Shown here: positions 40,602 through 49,041 of the stretch, piece by piece | Layout: each line of letters starts with the position of its first letter | Position numbering within the stretch: position 1 is the first letter of the stretch | From: Methylocapsa sp. S129 | GTDB lineage: Bacteria; Pseudomonadota; Alphaproteobacteria; Rhizobiales; Beijerinckiaceae | Assembly (NCBI RefSeq): GCF_009765995.1 | Contig: NZ_LMUI01000042.1 | Location: 406,592 to 470,591 of the forward strand | Direction of reading: 5' to 3' | Length of the DNA stretch: 64,000 bases | Notes under the pieces: model-generated | Told to the model about the DNA's origin: nothing | Seen by the model: the letters and a program-made list of their open reading frames with translations, nothing else | The model's database searches: none | Translations under genes and position numbers: made by a program

Positions 40602-42761
40602 ATGCATGCGCGTAATGAAGATGATCCGCTGCTTTCTCACACGGCGCCGTTTGAACTGCGCGTGTTGGGCCCATTCGAGCTTGTGCATCGCCAATCCGGC
40701 GAGTTGATCCCGGCGCCCGCCGCGAAAATGCAGGCGTTGATCGTCTATCTCGCGGCTGCGCCGCGGTTCACCGACACACGTCGGCGGCTCGCGGGTCTGC
40801 TGTGGGCGAGCAGCGGCGACAATCAAGCGCGGCAGAGCCTGCGTCAGTTGCTCAGCAATTTCCGACGCAGCGCCGATCCGCGCGCGTCGGCGATCGTCAC
40901 CTTCGACGAGACCAACGTGAGCCTTGCCTCTTCGCTGGTTGCGGTCGACCGGGCTGCCTTGATGGAGGCGCCAGCCGACGCCGACGTGTCCGAACTCATG
41001 CGGACCGCCGACCTCTATCGTAACGATTTTGCGCAGGGGCTGGAGATCGGCGAGCCCGATTTCGACGCGTGGCTCTCCGCCGAGCGGATGCGGAGCCGCG
41101 AAGCCGCGATTGCGCTGTTCGATCGCCTGATCCGCGCGCTCATCAGTCTTGGGCGCCATGACGAGGCCCTGAGGCGCGCCAACCGGCTCGCCGAGATCGA
41201 CCCTTTGCGCGAGGAGACCCATCGGCTGGCGATCTCCCAGGAAGCGATCGTGTCGGGGCGCGCCTCCGCGATGCAACGCTACGAAGCTTTTCGCGTGCTG
41301 CTCAGGGACGAATTGAGCGTACGGCCCGAGCCCGCCACCCTTCGCCTGTTGGAAGAGCTGCGCCAGCAGCAGGCTACACACGTCGGGCCCGTAGCGGCGA
41401 CCGCTCAGGCGACAGCCGCGGAAGGCGCCGAGACGGCCGCGCCCGCGACAATTCCTGCCCGCGCCTCGGCGCGGAGTTGGCGGCGGCCGGGCCTCGCCGT
41501 GGGCTTCGCGCTCGTCCTGCTGTTCGGCGGACTGATAACAACCCGGGCCTGGCGCCCGTTCGCGGCGTGGCTTGGTTATGTCGACACTGAGGCCGAACGC
41601 GCCTCCGTCGTCGTGCTGCCGTTCGAGATTGGCCCCGGTCTTGACGATCTGCGCGCGCGGGCGGGGGCCTATGAGGCTGAGACCAGGCTCGCCTTCGCCG
41701 ACAATCGCCACCTGTCGCTCGTCGAACGACCCGACGGCCTGACGTCGCGCGATCCGATCGGCCTCGGCCGCGCGCTGCACGTTCGCTACGTCGTCGCGAC
41801 CAGCATGACGAAAACGGCCGATGGCGCGAGGTTCGACGTTAGCCTGTCCGATGCGGCGACCGGGGGGCAAATTTTCACCGCGCCGGCGCCGATGACGGAC
41901 GATAAGACCAAATTCGTGCACCAACTCTATCAGTTCGTCTATCCGGAAATCGCGATCCATCAGGCGGAGGCGCTGGCGGCGCATAAACCGAATTCGAATC
42001 CAGCGCTGCTCTGGCGGGCCCAAGCGGTGGAAGCCAGAACCGGCATCAACCTCGCCAATCTCGCCGCCTTCGAAACCGTGCTCGCGAACCGCCCGAGTCC
42101 ATGGGAGCAAAACGAGGCCCTTCTCGGGCTGGCCGACGCCCTCTTTCTGAGAGCGGGCGTCGATCGGAGCAAGGACGTGGATAGAACGGAGGACATCCGG
42201 CGCGGCTCGGCGACTTTGGAGCAGGCGAAGGCGCTATCGGCCGATCCTGCCGAAGTCGCCTTCCTCGAAGGCATGCGCGACAAGCTGCAATCCAAATATC
42301 CGGAGGCCGGCGCGCATTTCGCGCGTGCGGTGGAGCTCAGCCCCCGCAATCGGACGGCGGCCGCCCAGGCCGCCCATGTGAAAATGTTTGGCGGCCTCTT
42401 CGACGAGGCCTATCGCGACATGGAGTTGATCAAGGATGTCGACGACGTGACGGCGTTTATCGCAGGAGAGACGGCGCTGATGGCGGATCATCCAGACAGC
42501 GCCGTGGTCCATTTCGACGCTGCGGTTTCACACAATCCGGAGATTGCGCGCAACCATGCCTGGCGCGCGGTGGCCCTCTGGCGGAAGGGTCGAAAGGGGG
42601 AGGCGCAGGACGAAGCCCGGAAATCGCAAAACCCGCCGGTCCCCTACCAGTCCGTCTGGATGCAGCATCGCGCGCCTTTGGCCGACAAACGCTACCAGGA
42701 CCAACGCGACGCCTGCTACGAGGATTTCCTGCATGCGTACAATTACGCGCCAACGAACTGA
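40602..42761 (+). CDS. Membrane-anchored SARP/BTAD transcriptional regulator with TolB-like and TPR regions
   Basis: A 719-residue regulator. Residues 17-115 form an OmpR-like winged helix of the SARP type (FELRVLGPFELVH; RRRLAGLLWASSGDNQARQS; LRQLLSNFRR). Residues 116-256 are the BTAD helical domain (GEPDFDAWLSAERMRSREAA; DELSVRPEPATLRLLEELRQ). A membrane helix follows at 297-315, then a TolB-like domain (ASVVVLPFEIGPGLDDLRAR; GRALHVRYVVATSMT) and TPR-like repeats. SARP proteins bind direct repeats at 11-bp spacing. Four such repeat elements lie downstream, the first starting inside this gene's last codons, so it is the obvious candidate activator. Confidence 0.88.
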   Translation: MHARNEDDPLLSHTAPFELRVLGPFELVHRQSGELIPAPAAKMQALIVYLAAAPRFTDTRRRLAGLLWASSGDNQARQSLRQLLSNFRRSADPRASAIVTFDETNVSLASSLVAVDRAALMEAPADADVSELMRTADLYRNDFAQGLEIGEPDFDAWLSAERMRSREAAIALFDRLIRALISLGRHDEALRRANRLAEIDPLREETHRLAISQEAIVSGRASAMQRYEAFRVLLRDELSVRPEPATLRLLEELRQQQATHVGPVAATAQATAAEGAETAAPATIPARASARSWRRPGLAVGFALVLLFGGLITTRAWRPFAAWLGYVDTEAERASVVVLPFEIGPGLDDLRARAGAYEAETRLAFADNRHLSLVERPDGLTSRDPIGLGRALHVRYVVATSMTKTADGARFDVSLSDAATGGQIFTAPAPMTDDKTKFVHQLYQFVYPEIAIHQAEALAAHKPNSNPALLWRAQAVEARTGINLANLAAFETVLANRPSPWEQNEALLGLADALFLRAGVDRSKDVDRTEDIRRGSATLEQAKALSADPAEVAFLEGMRDKLQSKYPEAGAHFARAVELSPRNRTAAAQAAHVKMFGGLFDEAYRDMELIKDVDDVTAFIAGETALMADHPDSAVVHFDAAVSHNPEIARNHAWRAVALWRKGRKGEAQDEARKSQNPPVPYQSVWMQHRAPLADKRYQDQRDACYEDFLHAYNYAPTN

Positions 42762-42838
42762 AATTCATCGGTAATTTTCATTCCCCCAGCTTTGACGCTG
42801 TTTTGACGGCGGCTTGACGGGCGCTGTGATCCATTCCG
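42751..42838 (+). promoter_or_regulatory. TTGACG triple-repeat promoter element, copy 1
   Basis: TTGACG at 42792, 42803 and 42814, exactly 11 bases apart, preceded by a conserved 40-base block beginning CAACGAACTGAAATTC and followed by GTGATCCAT. The block starts within the last codons of the SARP gene. It heads the secreted-protein gene at 42973. Conserved with 44490, 45505 and 46866. Confidence 0.85.
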
Positions 42839-42972
42839 CATGCATTGATCATGGGAATTGGGGGGGAAGGATGTCTTCAGGAGCGCATTGCAAAAGTCGG
42901 AGCCTCATTGCGTGGCTTGGTCGAACGATCGACGTGTTGAGCTTGTCCAAACAGCCATTTTCGCGGTCAGGA

Positions 42973-43518
42973 ATGAAGGGGACGATCCTGGCCGGACTAC
43001 TGGTCATCGGCGCGGTGGGCGCGGCCCATGCCCAGGAAGACGAATATGAAGCGGGCAAGCAGGCGTTCCATAATTATGAAGCGCGGCCCGACACCACCGA
43101 CGGTTACTCTGGATATAACCAGGCGCAGCGTGAGGAAGAGGCGCAGCGCAAAGCTATCGATGACGCCATGCACCCGCATGTGACGCCCGCGCCGTCCTAT
43201 AGTTATCAGGCGCCGGCGCAGCAGCAGCCGACGTCCGGCGTTTCAGGGAGCGTCGCGGAGCCGGGCGGTTCGAACTTGGCGCCGACTGTCGGTTTCGCGG
43301 AGCCATCGGTTGCGCAGCCGAACCCGGTCCAGTCTAAACCCGCGGACGTTCGGACGCCTCTTCCAGGGTATTCCAAGCCCCGTATGACGCTGAACAAACC
43401 CCACTATCGCCAGTGTCCGCCATCGGGATGCGGACCCAATGTCCCTGCGATCGTGCGTGCGATTGTGTTCAACGGCCTGTTCGACCTGATGACGCACCGA
43501 GCTCGCCGCCACTGGTGA
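42973..43518 (+). CDS. Secreted proline/glutamine-rich protein, unknown function
   Basis: A 181-residue secreted protein: signal peptide GTILAGLLVIGAVGAAHA, an acidic and Tyr-containing region (EAGKQAFHNYEARPDTTDGY), a Pro/Gln-rich middle (SYSYQAPAQQQPTSGV), and a C-terminal KPHYRQCPPSGCGPNVPAIV segment with two cysteines. An alternative ATG at 42871, after a G-rich AAGG stretch, would add 34 residues before the signal; I prefer the signal start. No family recognised. It is the first gene after TTGACG element copy 1. Confidence 0.65.
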   Translation: MKGTILAGLLVIGAVGAAHAQEDEYEAGKQAFHNYEARPDTTDGYSGYNQAQREEEAQRKAIDDAMHPHVTPAPSYSYQAPAQQQPTSGVSGSVAEPGGSNLAPTVGFAEPSVAQPNPVQSKPADVRTPLPGYSKPRMTLNKPHYRQCPPSGCGPNVPAIVRAIVFNGLFDLMTHRARRHW

Positions 43519-43663
43519 GGACGGCGCGCCGGTTGCTTGTCCCGACGGACTCCCATGACGGCCCGTCGCCTCATCGCCGGAGGACAAAGGCCGGGCGGGC
43601 GCGGGAATGTGGGTTCAAGAGTCAAGCGATTGAGACATTGTCCGACCCAGGAGCATCGCCCAG

Positions 43664-44362
43664 ATGACAGAATTCGCACTCGGAACAGGCGTTGAGGCTT
43701 CTTCGGCGGGCAGACAGCAATCGTCTGGCGCCGCTGCCGACGCGAGATGGCCCACGCAGCAAGCCGAAAGGGAAACGTGGCGACAGTTGATGGAGCGACA
43801 AACCCGGCCAGTCTGGGGGATGATCAAGTCCAACTTCCGTTGGAGCGTGTTCCTTTCACTGGCGTTCGCTCTTTTCCTAGTTTTTGGCTTCAATGACATC
43901 AATCACAATGGCGTCGAACTTACGCATGTGCTTTATACGTTCTTTGTATTTCTTGTAATATTACATAATTTATCATCAATAAAGCAGAAGACTTCTTCGA
44001 TTCAATATCTTGACGAAGAAGCGCGAATTGAAAAGTCTCCATACCAAGTCGGTAAGGTTTTTACCACGCAGGAAATCATCAAGGCGCTGAAGACTGAAGA
44101 CACGAACAATATTTCCAATCTTTCGATTGGAGCGTCGGCTTGCGCCGGCATCGCATTGTTCAGCTTCTTTTGCGTGCTCGAAGGAATCAAAGACATATGG
44201 CAGGTCGGGGCCCAGCAATTATCGGGCTGGGATTGGTTGCATATTATTATGAGAAGCATTTTCAGCGTGCCGGTGCTGGTCTTGACGACTTACACCGCCT
44301 TCAAGCAGGCCAAGGAACTTAGAAATCTTGCCCGGTCGTTGAGAGTTTTCACATCCGAATAA
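43664..44362 (+). CDS. Four-helix integral membrane protein, unknown function
   Basis: A 232-residue protein with membrane segments at about 60-76, 86-103, 155-173 and 194-213 and a cytoplasmic-looking loop (residues 104-150, QKTSSIQYLDEEARIEKSPY). The central part (43900-44130) is clearly richer in AT than its neighbours, suggesting foreign origin. ATG at 43664. A degraded copy of its first 30 bases and upstream 30 bases lies at 45781-45842. No family recognised. Confidence 0.7.
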   Translation: MTEFALGTGVEASSAGRQQSSGAAADARWPTQQAERETWRQLMERQTRPVWGMIKSNFRWSVFLSLAFALFLVFGFNDINHNGVELTHVLYTFFVFLVILHNLSSIKQKTSSIQYLDEEARIEKSPYQVGKVFTTQEIIKALKTEDTNNISNLSIGASACAGIALFSFFCVLEGIKDIWQVGAQQLSGWDWLHIIMRSIFSVPVLVLTTYTAFKQAKELRNLARSLRVFTSE

Positions 44363-44489
44363 TTTGGGGTTTCGGAGACGATCCTCTGTTCTTCACCCTC
44401 GTACGGAGGGTCACGAATGGCGCGCGCTTCCTCTCCCTTTACCCCAGCAGCCCATCACGACCCGGATGACCGATTCGCCAGCGCGGCCA

Positions 44490-44577
44490 AACGAACCGAA
44501 ATTCGTCGATATTTTCATCCCCTCGCGGCGTTGACGCTGTTTTGACGGCGGCTTGACGGGCCGGGTGCTTTATCGAC
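44490..44577 (+). promoter_or_regulatory. TTGACG triple-repeat promoter element, copy 2
   Basis: TTGACG at 44531, 44542 and 44553 (11-bp period), with the upstream block ACGAACCGAAATTCGTCGAT and TATTTTCAT, followed by GTGCTTTAT. It lies 176 bases before the paralogue-family gene at 44754. Confidence 0.85.
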
Positions 44578-44753
44578 CTCGGCGTTCGCCGCCAAAATCA
44601 CTCACGGAGACGGAGACGAAGAGATGCGCAAGGAGCAATGCGCCAGCGGCGACGCAAAAGCATGCCAGGAGGCGAAGCCGTGAAGGCGACGCGAACAGGC
44701 GCGTTCTCGATCTCACGAAACCCGAAGCTTTGGTCGATCGAGAGGACCGAGCC

Positions 44754-45260
44754 GTGATCGACGTGATTTATACGCCCGAGGAAATGGCCTTGCTCGTCGA
44801 GGCGGCGGAGCATTTTCATCGCTACGGGCGCGACTATTTCGGCAGCTACTTTTTCGGCGTGGACACGGCGGCGCTGGTCGTCATGTGCGGACATTTTCTC
44901 GACGCCTACCGCGCCGTCGACGAGCGGCGGCCCGAGGCCGCGCCGGTTTGCATCAGCCGGATCGAGAGCGGATTTCATCTGGTAGCCGACGACGGCCTCA
45001 GCGATCTCACGGATTCCGGCCTGCGGGAGCTCGCTCACAGCGCCGAAGCCGAAGGCGACCTCAAGCGCCACGCCATGCTCACCGCCATGATTGCTAAATC
45101 ATGGCCGGTTGAGATCTTGCGCGAGTCCGCTGAGCGCGGCTGCTCCGACGAGCCGACCGATGAGGAACGCGCCGAGACGCAAAGAGCGTTCGCCGAGCTT
45201 GCCCGCCTTGACATAGGACAATTGCAAGAACAGGTCCGGCGCTTGAAAAAGGACGGGTGA
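44754..45260 (+). CDS. Paralogue-family soluble protein 1, unknown function
   Basis: A 168-residue protein. Residues 1-54 (VIDVIYTPEEMALLVEAAEH; YFFGVDTAALVVMCGHFLDA) align with MIDAHYSQEEMDILLETAIE and the GADKKTFTSMANRFIDAY stretch of the protein at 46072-46785, and with the broken copy at 45293-45505. The rest is helical with a coiled-coil-like C-terminus (IGQLQEQVRRLKK). The GTG at 44754 has AGAGGA seven bases before it and matches the paralogue start; the open frame back to 44553 begins inside the promoter element. No known family. Confidence 0.6.
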   Translation: MIDVIYTPEEMALLVEAAEHFHRYGRDYFGSYFFGVDTAALVVMCGHFLDAYRAVDERRPEAAPVCISRIESGFHLVADDGLSDLTDSGLRELAHSAEAEGDLKRHAMLTAMIAKSWPVEILRESAERGCSDEPTDEERAETQRAFAELARLDIGQLQEQVRRLKKDG

Positions 45261-45292
45261 CGGTCGCGTCCGCAGCTTTGACGCGTCAGGAG

Positions 45293-45505
45293 AGCCCCAT
45301 AGCCGACGCGCCTTACGGCTGCATGATCGACGCCGATCATAGTCAGGAAGAAATGGATGTCTTCCCGCGGGAGCGATCAAATATCGCGACAATTTCGATC
45401 GCCGCCCCGACAGCCGCGTGGAAGACGCCGACGAGAAAGCCTTCATCGACCTGGCGAGCCGATTCATCGACGCCTACCCAAGGCTTCCAAGCCGCGACCA
45501 TGCGT
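45293..45505 (+). pseudogene. Broken paralogue-family gene (frameshift, truncated)
   Basis: Begins IADAPYGCMIDADHSQEEMD, matching MAEAPQGRMIDAHYSQEEMD of the gene at 46072, but with ATA where the ATG should be. After DVF the frame shifts, and homology continues as KYRDNFDRRPDSRVEDADEK then FIDLASRFIDAY. It stops where TTGACG element copy 3 begins. The 3' third of the gene is absent. Confidence 0.75.
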
Positions 45506-45592
45506 CAACGAACGGAAACGTGTCGATATTCTCACTCCCCCGCGGCATTGACGCTGTTTTGACGGCGGCTTGACGGCAACGGTGCTTCATCC
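45505..45592 (+). promoter_or_regulatory. TTGACG triple-repeat promoter element, copy 3
   Basis: TTGACG at 45548, 45559 and 45570, 11-bp period, with the CAACGAACGGAAACGTGTCG block upstream and GTGCTTCAT downstream. It follows the broken paralogue gene. No intact gene starts within 450 bases, so it may be idle or may drive the gene at 46072. Confidence 0.8.
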
Positions 45593-46071
45593 TCGCTGCG
45601 TTCATCATGGAGCGCGGGATAAGCTGAATGCACGGTCGCCGCCATGCCGAATCGCCAGGACGCCGGAGCCCTTCGGGGCTCGCCTTGCATCGTCGGCCGC
45701 GATCGCATCACGAAGCGGACGTGAGGACGACATCCGTAATTCGAGGGCGGGACCATCGGTTTGGGAGCCGGCGGTCGGCGCATTGTCTGGTTCAGGGGCG
45801 CGTTGCAGCGGACGGAATTCGCGCTCGGAGCCGGCGTTGCGCCTTCGCCCCTATCGCCAGAGCCGAAGGCGCCGCGCCGCGCGCGCCGCTGATCAGCGGC
45901 GTCACAGGCAAATCCTGGCCCGACGACGGGAAGCGGGAGTTTGCCGGGATCGCCGCCCGGAAAGACCCGGAAGCGGGCGCGTGGCGGTCATGCCCGGCCT
46001 TGTAACCCGCCAGTTCATTGGGTTGCGGTCTGATTGTTGAATTGTGTTCGTCCACATCGAGAGCCGCCAGA
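45593..46071. pseudogene. Decayed cassette with a remnant of the 43664 gene start
   Basis: About 480 bases with no convincing gene. Bases 45781-45842 (CATTGTCTGG; GGACGGAATTCGCGCTCGGA) align with 43636-43695, the start and upstream edge of the four-helix membrane protein gene, but the start codon is lost. The rest is probably the eroded remainder of a duplicated cassette. Frames of 120-150 codons exist but have no family features. Confidence 0.5.
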
Positions 46072-46785
46072 ATGAACGACAACCACGACCTGATCGACGA
46101 CGAGCGCGACATGCTGGCATGGTGGGGCGGCTTGAGCGATCGCGACCGCGAGTTTTCTATCGGCATCGGCCTCACGACTCCCCGGCTCGCATGGGCGTTT
46201 CACAAATTCTATCGGGCCAGCGAACAAGGTTTGCCGACCGAGGCCGCGCTCAAACGAGCCTATCTCGAGCTCCTAAAGGCCGAGGGCGACGGGGCGTCGA
46301 AGGACCTTGCGAGGCCGCTAGAGTTTGGCCGTTCGAGGGCGCCTGAAGAGGGCTCCATGGCCGAGGCGCCCCAAGGCCGCATGATTGACGCCCACTACAG
46401 CCAGGAAGAAATGGATATCTTGCTGGAGACCGCGATCGAATATCGCGACAATTTTGATCGCTATTCCCGCACTCACATGAAGGGCGCGGACAAGAAAACC
46501 TTCACCTCGATGGCGAATCGATTCATCGATGCCTACGCCATGGCTTCCAGGCCGCGCCCCGATCGTCCAACTCAGAAAAAGGGGTGGATACGCGTCCAGA
46601 AGATTGGCGATCGCTATCGCGTTCAGGCTGAGGAAGATTTTGCACAACTCACCGCGATGGCGATGGAGTCTGCGTTGCCCGAACATCCGGCGCGCAAAAA
46701 ACTGCTGGGCGAATCATCGCTTAATTCTGGCCCCGCTAACCACCATCTGCGCGGTCAGCCGCCGCCGGTTCAGGGTCGACATTGA
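46072..46785 (+). CDS. Paralogue-family soluble protein 2 with an extra N-terminal region
   Basis: A 237-residue protein. Residues 1-95 (DLIDDERDMLAWWGGLSDRD; AFHKFYRASEQGLPTEAALK) have no counterpart in the gene at 44754; residues 96 onward (MAEAPQGRMIDAHYSQEEMD; YRDNFDRYSRTHMKGADKKT) are the paralogue domain, followed by WIRVQKIGDRYRVQAEEDFA and a tail. An internal ATG at 46357 behind GAGGG matches the paralogue starts, so a shorter protein from there is possible. No known family. It may be read from TTGACG copy 3. Confidence 0.65.
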   Translation: MNDNHDLIDDERDMLAWWGGLSDRDREFSIGIGLTTPRLAWAFHKFYRASEQGLPTEAALKRAYLELLKAEGDGASKDLARPLEFGRSRAPEEGSMAEAPQGRMIDAHYSQEEMDILLETAIEYRDNFDRYSRTHMKGADKKTFTSMANRFIDAYAMASRPRPDRPTQKKGWIRVQKIGDRYRVQAEEDFAQLTAMAMESALPEHPARKKLLGESSLNSGPANHHLRGQPPPVQGRH

Positions 46786-46865
46786 ACGAACTTTGTCAGA
46801 CCGACGCGACAAGGATGCGCACAGCGGCTGACGCGAGGCTTTCAGGCAAGCGCTGGCGTATCCGA

Positions 46866-46952
46866 TGCGAACTTAAATCCATCGATATTTTCATTTCCTC
46901 GCAGCGTTGACGCCATTTTGACGGCGGCTTGACGAAGGTTGTGATTCATCTC
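46866..46952 (+). promoter_or_regulatory. TTGACG triple-repeat promoter element, copy 4
   Basis: TTGACG at 46907, 46918 and 46929, 11-bp period, with GCGAACTTAAATCCATCGAT and TATTTTCAT upstream and GTGATTCAT downstream. It lies about 100 bases before the LuxR-type regulator gene at 47032. Confidence 0.85.
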
Positions 46953-47031
46953 TGCGCACAACGCCCGGTTCTCCGACGCAATCGCTGAAGCGCCTGATGA
47001 TGACCCATGAAGAACGATATGGCGCGGCGGC

Positions 47032-47904
47032 ATGACGTTGCGCGAAAACGAATTGATCGACCTATTGTACGAGAGCGTGATCGACGCCGGGCGCTGGCGT
47101 CACGCCCTTGACGAATTTCGAAAATACTTTGGATCCTTCGCGGCGTTTCCTGAGCTTGCGGAAGCCGTCGAAGGGCGCGTGGACGCGGCTTGCGCCAGCT
47201 TCGATCGCCCGGAATCTGAAGCGAACGCCATGGGTGCGGAAACGCTGGCGCAGCACGTCGTACGCGCCTCGCGATTGAGAGAGTCCTTTGAACGTTTGCA
47301 GGCCGAAGCTCTCGGCCTTGCTGCCGTGGCCGACCGATTGAGCGCAGGTGTGATCGTCTTGGACGGTCAAGGTCAATCGCTTTACATCAACGACGCCGCG
47401 CGCAAATTTATAGCGCGCAAAGACGGCTTGACCCTCGACCGCGGCGGCCGTCTGCGCGCCGTCAAACGCGCCGCCGATCGCGCGCTCGCCCTCTTGCAGG
47501 ATAAGGCGCTCGAAGAGGGGCCGGGCGGCCTGGCGCAAGTCCCGCGCGAGGGCGACATGCGGCCCTATGCGATTATGGTCGCGCCCCTGCCGGCAAGTTC
47601 AGGCGGCTTGGGGGCGAGTGGGGAAAGTCGCGCCGGAATCCTGATGCTGATTCACGATCCGGATTCCGCGGAGAAGCTATCCGCTCGCGTTCTCGCCGAA
47701 ATCTTCGGACTAACGCCGAAAACAGCGGAACTCGTGGCGGCTCTGGCGGTCGGCGAAGAGTTGAAGGATTACGCCGACCGCGCCGGGCTCTCGCTTCATA
47801 CGGTCCGTTTTCATCTCAAGTCGACGTTCCTGCGGATGGGCGTCCGCAGTCAGGCGCAATTGGTGCGACTCGCCGTCCGCGCGGCGGCGGACCTTCATTT
47901 TTAG
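47032..47904 (+). CDS. LuxR-type helix-turn-helix regulator with PAS-like region
   Basis: A 290-residue regulator. Residues 100-200 resemble a PAS domain (LSAGVIVLDGQGQSLYINDA). The C-terminal 65 residues form a LuxR/GerE helix-turn-helix: FGLTPKTAELVAALAVGEEL, then DYADRAGLSLHTVRFHLKST and FLRMGVRSQAQLVRL. No receiver domain, so it is not a standard response regulator; a ligand or redox signal is more likely. TTGACG copy 4 precedes it, placing it under the putative SARP regulon as a second-tier regulator. A terminator hairpin follows at 48045. Confidence 0.83.
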   Translation: MTLRENELIDLLYESVIDAGRWRHALDEFRKYFGSFAAFPELAEAVEGRVDAACASFDRPESEANAMGAETLAQHVVRASRLRESFERLQAEALGLAAVADRLSAGVIVLDGQGQSLYINDAARKFIARKDGLTLDRGGRLRAVKRAADRALALLQDKALEEGPGGLAQVPREGDMRPYAIMVAPLPASSGGLGASGESRAGILMLIHDPDSAEKLSARVLAEIFGLTPKTAELVAALAVGEELKDYADRAGLSLHTVRFHLKSTFLRMGVRSQAQLVRLAVRAAADLHF

Positions 47905-47970: not shown

Positions 47971-48044
47971 GTGATCGCAATCATGCGCGCTCTTCGAGGA
48001 GCCTTGAGAAAAGCCTGCGTGATCTCTTTGTGATCGCAATCATG
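47971..48044 (+). repeat. Direct repeat of 15 bp
   Basis: GTGATCGCAATCATG occurs at 47971-47985 and 48030-48044, 59 bases apart, between the LuxR stop and the terminator. No function recognised. Confidence 0.6.
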
Positions 48045-48072
48045 AAAAGGCCGCTCGCGGGCGGCCTTTTCC
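48045..48072. terminator. Intrinsic terminator, likely bidirectional
   Basis: AAAAGGCCGC, a short loop, then GCGGCCTTTT: an 8-10-bp GC-rich stem flanked by A-run and T-run, between the LuxR gene (ends 47904) and the convergent outer-membrane gene (ends 48106). Classic two-way terminator. Confidence 0.85.
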
Positions 48073-48105: not shown

Positions 48106-48834
48106 TCAGAATTTATATTCGACGCCCGCCCGCACGGTGTTCTCGCTCAACTTGATCCTGTCGGTGTCGAAAAGAGAGCCTGTCGGCGGGGTAATGTTGA
48201 AGCTGTAGGTCCGCGCGCCGAAGCCATCATAGATATATTCGACCCTGGCGATCCAATTTTGGGTGAAGGCGTATTCGACGCCGCCGCCGATATTGTAGCC
48301 GACCAGATCCTGCGCGATCGACTCATTGAATCCATTGAAGGGATTGGTGAACTTGGCTTGCAAATTGCCCACGGAGAGGCCCGCGGCGGCGTAGATCAGA
48401 ATATTGTCGAGCGCGTAGCCGGCGCGCGCGCGAAGGCGGCCGATATACGATCCGTCGACCTGATAGTCGCGTGTTGCGAGCGCAGGGTTGAGAAAAGAGC
48501 CGGACCCGTGGCGGCCATCATAGCCGAACTCGACTTCGGCGCCGACGACGAAAGCGCTAAACTGCACATTGTAGCCGTTCAGGATGCCTCCGGTGAAACT
48601 GGTCGACGACAGATTGCCGATGCCGTTGAAGTTCGGGAAGCTGAGATCGGAAAAAGATGTTGTTCCGAACGAGCCGCCCGCATAACCGCCGACGTAGAAG
48701 CCGGACCAATTGTAAGGGCCGCTCGCGGGAAACACGGGAGCGGGCTTACTTGTCGGGAGGTCGGCGGCAAAAGCGCTGGCGGAGAAGGTGAGCGCAGCGG
48801 AAACGGCGAGTGCTTTGCCGGTAAATTTGATCAT
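48106..48834 (-). CDS. Outer-membrane beta-barrel protein (Omp25/Omp31-like)
   Basis: A 242-residue outer-membrane protein with a signal peptide (TGKALAVSAALTFSASAFA). The mature start NWSGFYVGGYAGGSFG is the Omp25/Omp31/hemin-binding barrel signature common in Hyphomicrobiales. Alternating strands follow (VGAEVEFGYDG; GRLRARAGYALDNILIYAAA; GGGVEYAFTQNWIARVEYIY) and it ends in Phe (VRAGVEYKF), the barrel-assembly signal. Start at 48834, at the signal peptide. Likely structural or adhesive. Confidence 0.93.
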   Translation of the reverse strand: MIKFTGKALAVSAALTFSASAFAADLPTSKPAPVFPASGPYNWSGFYVGGYAGGSFGTTSFSDLSFPNFNGIGNLSSTSFTGGILNGYNVQFSAFVVGAEVEFGYDGRHGSGSFLNPALATRDYQVDGSYIGRLRARAGYALDNILIYAAAGLSVGNLQAKFTNPFNGFNESIAQDLVGYNIGGGVEYAFTQNWIARVEYIYDGFGARTYSFNITPPTGSLFDTDRIKLSENTVRAGVEYKF

Positions 48835-49041
48835 ATCGTCTACCCCAGTCCATTCTGTTGATCGTTGCCGCAATGCGGTTGGCGTATTGCTAGCTCAACG
48901 GAAGGGGCCCGCGCGCCACTCAAATAGGGTAATTGCCGAACGTCTTTTCGATTTCGTCAGTGAAATCTTGCGGCGGGAAGTCCACGGCAGCCGCTGAGGC
49001 GACGACCGCATAGCCCGCATTCCTAGCGACGATCGCGCTTC

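Follow-up and report, generated by a model that had tools for sequence, protein, structure and literature searches.

The 64,000-nucleotide stretch of Methylocapsa sp. S129 analysed here (hereafter the window) carries a gene for a SARP-type regulator and, within the 4.2 kb behind it, four copies of an element in which the hexamer TTGACG is repeated three times at a period of 11 bp (table 1). An initial annotation of this DNA had proposed that these triples are sites of the adjoining regulator, i.e. the operators of a local regulon.

Table 1. Coordinates of the regulator gene, the triple elements and the neighbouring genes in the window.
Feature	Position	Strand	Remarks
SARP-type regulator, 719 residues	40602..42761	+	winged helix and BTAD, residues ~1-260; linker and probable transmembrane helix, ~296-316; alpha/beta domain, ~334-426; TPR solenoid, ~435-713
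Element 1	42758..42835	+	AT-rich block; TTGACG at 42792/42803/42814; GTGA; -10-like TCCATT, 42830-42835
Element 2	44497..44574	+	TTGACG at 44531/44542/44553; GTGC; -10-like TTTATC, 44569-44574
Element 3	45514..45591	+	TTGACG at 45548/45559/45570; GTGC; -10-like TTCATC, 45586-45591; decayed DNA after
Element 4	46873..46950	+	TTGACG at 46907/46918/46929; GTGA; -10-like TTCATC, 46945-46950
215-residue protein, secreted-looking, hydrophobic N-terminal segment	42871..43518	+	predicted target of element 1
232-residue protein, hydrophobic segments, probably membrane	43664..44362	+	possibly on the same transcript as the 42871 gene
168-residue orphan protein	44754..45260	+	predicted target of element 2; start codon uncertain
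237-residue orphan protein	46072..46785	+	possible target of element 3, ~480 bp away
LuxR-type regulator, 290 residues	47032..47904	+	predicted target of element 4

The regulator and the triple elements

Fold and domain content place the regulator in the SARP family. Indeed, its BTAD domain (PF03704) is recognized with an E-value of 7.6e-18 over residues 111-254, TPRs are matched too, and among the three BTAD matches over the cut-off in the host genome it is the only strong one (9.6e-19, positions 8-146 of 146), the other two being short (7.0e-6 and 6.9e-4, over approximately 61-67 positions). Pfam Trans_reg_C gave no match in this protein at E ≤ 1; its N-terminal OmpR-type winged helix was recognized through AfsR and EmbR, by profile and by fold alike. 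A profile made of residues 1-268 and 13 homologous stretches matches AfsR (1.2e-20) and EmbR (2.6e-16) among solved chains, and the AlphaFold model of residues 1-268 folded from a 14-row alignment (A1) has a mean confidence (predicted local distance difference test, pLDDT) of 90.7 and six PDB matches at E ≤ 0.001, all of them AfsR and EmbR chains. The full-length model (pLDDT 78.3) has its linker predicted at low confidence, with a helix at 298-315, and continues into the alpha/beta domain and an alpha solenoid. Given this modelled helix and the top-scoring hydrophobic windows at 296-316, the protein is probably anchored in the membrane, which it would span once. The alpha/beta domain, to which Pfam and NCBIfam gave no name, we take to be TolB-like. 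Such an architecture recalls the ToxR/CadC-type regulators, which combine a cytoplasmic winged helix, one transmembrane segment and a large periplasmic C-terminal part: the window SARP would likewise combine a winged helix, one probable transmembrane segment and a large, presumably periplasmic C-terminal part. It differs from them by its BTAD, which these regulators are not known to have, and by a C-terminal part made of the alpha/beta domain and TPRs.

The four exact (TTGACG-N5)x3 arrays reported in the initial annotation are all present, and so is their strict period: when periods 9-13 were scanned, identical hexamer triples were found in the window at period 11 and at these four places only, with none at 9, 10, 12 or 13. 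Allowing up to three mismatches, the window contains six matches versus a mean of 0.05 per shuffled window, and 0 of 100 shuffles reached six. In the whole genome (6.87 Mb, 62 contigs), there are five perfect triples versus approximately 0.0001 expected from base composition. The fifth lies on another contig (G000:C59:33365-33392, minus strand) and precedes a 133-residue open frame with a signal-like segment, i.e. a small secreted-looking protein. Two further places in the genome match with two mismatches (L006 and L007); they were dismissed as additional copies, as neither GTG nor a -10-like motif stands at the proper distance.

Each of the five copies has, after its third hexamer, a 10-bp stretch whose last bases are GTGA or GTGC, and next to it a -10-like hexamer (TCCATT, TTTATC, TTCATC, TTCATC and TGCATC in copies 1-5); counted from a repeat unit of 7-8 bp, this distance becomes 8-9 bp. 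The trailing motif is thus looser than the GTG.TTCAT first given for it, since it actually reads GTGATCCAT, GTGCTTTAT, GTGCTTCAT and GTGATTCAT in the window and GTGATGCAT in the fifth copy. The triples are preceded by an AT-rich block, and the conserved 5' block described earlier is indeed common to all five copies, if weaker in copy 3. Pairwise alignments of elements 1-4 cover 53-111 bp at 77-89% identity, so that the four are related by duplication. The first repeat of element 1 lies 30 bp behind the SARP stop codon. As regards autoregulation, the best period-11 heptamer triple in the approximately 700 bp upstream of the SARP gene has six mismatches, and this candidate was rejected.

Regulator-site pairing in other genomes

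The initial annotation would have been refuted by triples at many unrelated sites, and the triple is on the contrary rare. Perfect copies occur in 3 of the 397 genomes of the order (five in the host, one in G034, one in G623) and in 2 of the 265 Bradyrhizobium-genus genomes; among 41 relatives, G033 also has a triple with one mismatch. None of the 10 congeners carries a triple at one mismatch or fewer, and none has a SARP match at 1e-12, so that the locus looks accessory within the genus. Weaker SARP matches do exist in congeners (best 1.5e-10), mostly to the C-terminal half, the N-terminal part being matched in G006. As a separate observation, G034 displays TTGACGNNNGG tandem units at two places (L037 6780-6807, i.e. 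G034:C6:54779-54806, and L031, G034:C9:208505), the first without a SARP nearby.

A single contig scan of genomes for relatives of the SARP returned 49, the best being that of Bradyrhizobium algeriense RST91, which is 45% identical over its full length and in which the recognition-helix stretch QARQSLRQLLSNFRR is unchanged. The stop codon of this gene is followed 29 bp later by a perfect triple, the sole one at one mismatch or fewer in the 8.9-Mb genome. The gene after the triple encodes a secreted-looking protein whose tail resembles PEP-CTERM (32.2 bits, slightly under the NCBIfam cut-off of 35), and the next gene encodes a GDSL protein with PEP-CTERM above the Pfam cut-off. Within the Bradyrhizobium-genus set, the SARP is matched at 1e-40 in three genomes, namely B. 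algeriense itself, G507 (94%) and G580 (28%), and the perfect triple is found once each in B. algeriense and G507, the two with a close orthologue (hypergeometric value for these two versus the other 263 genomes: 2.9e-5). In G507, too, it begins 29 bp behind the SARP stop. Compared with element 1, the B. algeriense element keeps 18 of 18 hexamer bases versus 3 of 10 spacer bases (P 1e-4). An 85-position sequence model of the element, built from the five host and two Bradyrhizobium copies, gives 70-78 bits to the former and 54-55 bits to the latter, while nothing else in 14 genomes exceeds 20.3 bits; these seven elements also trained the model, so that only the score gap is informative.

Beyond close orthologues, a motif-free search for repeated heptamers near family-level SARP homologues also led to period-11 triples. 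With at most two mismatches, such triples occur in 10 of 66 regions upstream of SARP homologues, those from the contig scan included (up to 380 bp each; automatic duplicates L062 and L138 removed; L033, L072, L090, L093 and L117 not included), and the ten cores are closely related in wording; control periods of 8, 9, 10, 12, 13, 14, 15 and 16 bp gave 0, 3, 1, 1, 2, 0, 0 and 0 regions, respectively. Searching 68 homologue loci for three TnAYGC units (at most one mismatch) gave 22 matches at period 11, versus a mean of 1.0 and a maximum of 3 in 20 Markov simulations, and 0, 1, 0, 1, 0, 2 and 3 matches at control periods 8, 9, 10, 12, 13, 14 and 15. As the motif was partly derived from the same loci, the weight of this result rests on the period controls and on the uniform orientation of the sites. 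Indeed, 15 of the 22 triples, in 14 loci, sit upstream of the SARP, 104-274 bp before its DNA-binding domain begins, and every one of these is oriented towards the upstream neighbour, away from the SARP. Four of the other seven lie behind the SARP (two overlapping directly behind it in L073, one at approximately 330 bp in L065, one at approximately 3 kb in L033) and point away from it as in the window; the remaining three are 1-5 kb upstream (L063, and L070 twice). The 68-locus set omits L090, L118 and L125, which duplicate L060, L062 and L033; L072 had no assigned SARP start, and L083 and L085, which have a stop in the match, were kept in the DNA counts and placed in no protein alignment. The 22 include neither the weaker sites of L066 and L068 nor the Bradyrhizobium site, whose TTGACGG departs from TnAYGC.

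By record title or family tag, the loci with upstream matches are alphaproteobacterial, except L120 (Methylomirabilota). In this last bin, at least four consecutive 11-bp TCACGC units stand upstream of the SARP homologue (L120 986-1024), and several other homologue sites appear to have a weak fourth unit. The genes faced by the sites include autotransporters in L061, L062 (whose sequence equals Bosea lathyri L118) and L065, a LuxR protein with borderline PAS in L089 and a cupin protein in L073, besides SnoaL-like (below cut-off), MerC, DsrE and DUF1127 proteins; several sites are without a clear target. It was also observed that large SARP homologues (L061 6672-9644 and L062 10811-15496) adjoin autotransporter genes with the operator-like triple between or alongside, and that the SARPs of L061 and L065 have AAA and TPR domains, to which L061 adds a cyclase domain: the link to surface proteins recurs with a different SARP architecture. 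A possible protein-DNA covariation was considered, L065 and L068 having SLRH rather than SLRQ in the recognition helix and TTCATG rather than TTnACG in the DNA; as this is one related pair, no claim is made.

Taken together, direct repeats spaced at 11 or 22 bp near target promoters, a trait of the SARP family, are found as the five perfect 11-bp triples of the host, in Bradyrhizobium and beside other homologues. The expectation that gene and element would be paired in related genomes is thereby borne out, in Bradyrhizobium as well as beside these other homologues.

Genes beside the elements

The genes assigned to the elements, in the window and in the homologue loci alike, are predicted targets on the basis of their position. 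Neither Pfam nor NCBIfam gave a match for the 215-residue protein, nor did Pfam at E ≤ 0.01 for the 232-residue one. The 168-residue protein is a paralogue of the 46072 protein (25% identity over residues 98-194 of the latter), for which the host genome is the sole match among 21 genomes searched. The LuxR-type regulator is supported by GerE (29.2 bits, cut-off 23.5), with a weak PAS_4 match (18.4 bits, below the cut-off of 23.1). The initial annotation had the SARP activating secreted, membrane and LuxR products; predicted targets of these kinds are present, but copy 3 precedes decayed DNA, and hence not every copy has an evident intact target. Likewise, four copies do stand beside the SARP gene, but the fifth, on another contig, indicates that the set of sites is not purely local.

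Two decayed duplicates were observed, positions 45290-45496 being 77% identical to 46348-46556 within the 46072 gene, and positions 45811-45846 matching the start of the 43664 gene at 83% identity. Duplication has enlarged the island, and part of it has decayed. Positions 40602-47904 had no match in 72,556 plasmid records (distant mode). Further downstream, an inverted repeat of 28 bases (48044-48071; 93% in a self-comparison) with a T-rich stretch after it separates the convergent LuxR gene and an outer-membrane barrel gene (48106-48873) and is likely to be a terminator.

Candidate operators of a probably membrane-bound SARP

SARP operators have been described for Streptomyces (PMC10936776, PMC5930380, PMC10972967). 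SARP promoters contain direct repeats one or two helical turns apart; a distance of 8 bp separates the 3' repeat and the -10, and region 4 of sigma contacts the SARP instead of a -35 (PMC10936776). The nearest solved fold to the window SARP is that of AfsR, which acts at the afsS promoter of Streptomyces coelicolor. There as here, direct repeats one turn apart lie upstream of the -10, but two repeats are found there and three TTGACG hexamers here (PMC10936776); the AfsR repeat, quoted as CGTT(T/C)ATCGNN, and the window sites both contain TTnAY (PMC10972967). AfsR has a nucleotide-binding and TPR part, and the portion of its description drawn on here includes no membrane anchor (PMC10936776). 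The PimR/pimM pair of Streptomyces natalensis (SARP-LAL) has the same 11-bp period and the same number of units, i.e. three heptamers with 4-bp spacers, and PimR activates a PAS-LuxR gene, which the gene behind element 4 may also be, with its LuxR part and weak PAS; the consensus is CGGCAAG there versus TTGACG here (PMC5930380). Furthermore, PimR is a large protein with a guanylate-cyclase/LAL-like half from a Streptomyces polyene antibiotic cluster (PMC5930380), whereas the regulator described here is smaller, probably membrane-spanning and alphaproteobacterial.

The triple is very probably, judging from these sequence comparisons, a docking site of the adjoining SARP. From the match to the published geometry, we infer both binding and activation: SARP protomers lying side by side would contact the DNA from one face, one TTGACG to each protomer, and would, by analogy with AfsR, replace the -35 element and hold region 4 of sigma, allowing RNA polymerase to use a poor extended -10 (TGn plus a TTCATC-like hexamer) located 10 bp after the third repeat. 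The targets would be the small secreted protein together with the membrane protein that follows, one or two orphan proteins, the LuxR-type regulator and the secreted-looking protein on the other contig. The regulator itself probably spans the membrane once and would act as a one-component sensor, its architecture suggesting that the periplasmic TolB-like/TPR part gates the cytoplasmic SARP domain. As a whole, the best explanation is that the SARP encoded at 40602-42761 uses the triples as operators and would activate its neighbours upon sensing at the membrane; we estimate its probability at about 85%.

Several observations weigh against this explanation. The triples of G034 and G623 have no SARP within approximately 10 kb on each side (tblastn with two SARPs; the sole match near the G034 triple, 0.009, is to SARP residues 618-683), and count against an exclusive pairing of triple and SARP; both genomes carry BTAD proteins elsewhere. 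The window elements are duplicates of one another, and the two triple-bearing Bradyrhizobium genomes are close relatives rather than independent cases, while G580, with its 28% identical full-length SARP relative, is without a triple. In the B. algeriense element, GTG stands at the distance seen in the host copies, but TGGCCT, which comes next, makes a poor -10. Lastly, 54 of the 68 homologue loci have no upstream TnAYGC triple at the threshold used, including the 39%-identical Methylocystis homologue (L033, with its one match approximately 3 kb downstream) and the three highest-identity Acidobacteria loci (L079, L080 and L082), and the homologue sites did not yield a consistent -10.

Other explanations account for part of these data. 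The triples could be read by another OmpR/PhoB-type response regulator and adjoin the SARP gene by coincidence, as OmpR-type regulators share both the fold and the 11-bp spacing of direct repeats, and the AfsR site is also read by PhoP (PMC10972967). Such a group-wide regulator should, however, have sites in relatives, whereas none of the 10 congeners has a triple at one mismatch or fewer and 263 of the 265 Bradyrhizobium-genus genomes have no perfect one, and the pairing of triple and SARP gene recurs; we consider this very unlikely. PhoB is presumably present in all these congeners and Bradyrhizobium-genus genomes. It is no more probable that the SARP binds the triples as a repressor, blocking a TTGACG that serves as -35: the hexamer does resemble the -35 consensus, and activation is itself assigned by analogy. 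Nevertheless, the third repeat stands 10 bp, and not approximately 17 bp, before the conserved -10-like motif, and cannot therefore be its -35. The spacing is instead close to the activator geometry of SARPs (PMC10936776). Finally, the similarity of elements 1-4 and the duplicated, partly decayed genes around them could suggest that the elements are remnants of a short repeat, duplicated or mobile, with no part in regulation. With five copies only in 6.87 Mb, hexamers but not spacers kept in Bradyrhizobium, and triples of this kind and period, but with a wording of their own, adjoining other SARPs, this is most improbable.

Operators of an activating SARP remain our preferred explanation, and by analogy the window system would work like the SARP operators of Streptomyces. 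The novelty lies in the host group, in a regulator that probably spans the membrane, and in the putative operator code, directed at neighbouring genes, across alphaproteobacterial SARPs; a partial literature search found no report of SARP operators in Proteobacteria. A broader proposal, for and against which we see about equal odds, is that alphaproteobacterial SARPs, together with that of at least one Methylomirabilota bin, have in common an operator code of three, sometimes four, TTnAYGC units at one-turn spacing, adjoining the SARP gene, pointing away from it and driving the next-door gene, recurrently a surface or secreted protein (autotransporters, PEP-CTERM-like proteins) or a LuxR regulator, and that the window branch consists of inner-membrane activators with a periplasmic TolB/TPR sensor.

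As the operator can be read beside its regulator, the targets of uncharacterized Gram-negative SARPs may become predictable from sequence, and short, testable promoter-regulator pairs are obtained. If the membrane anchor is real, the SARP fold would be coupled to a periplasmic part and the sensed signal would become testable; if the broader proposal is true, the SARP of the window branch would be an envelope-responsive switch.

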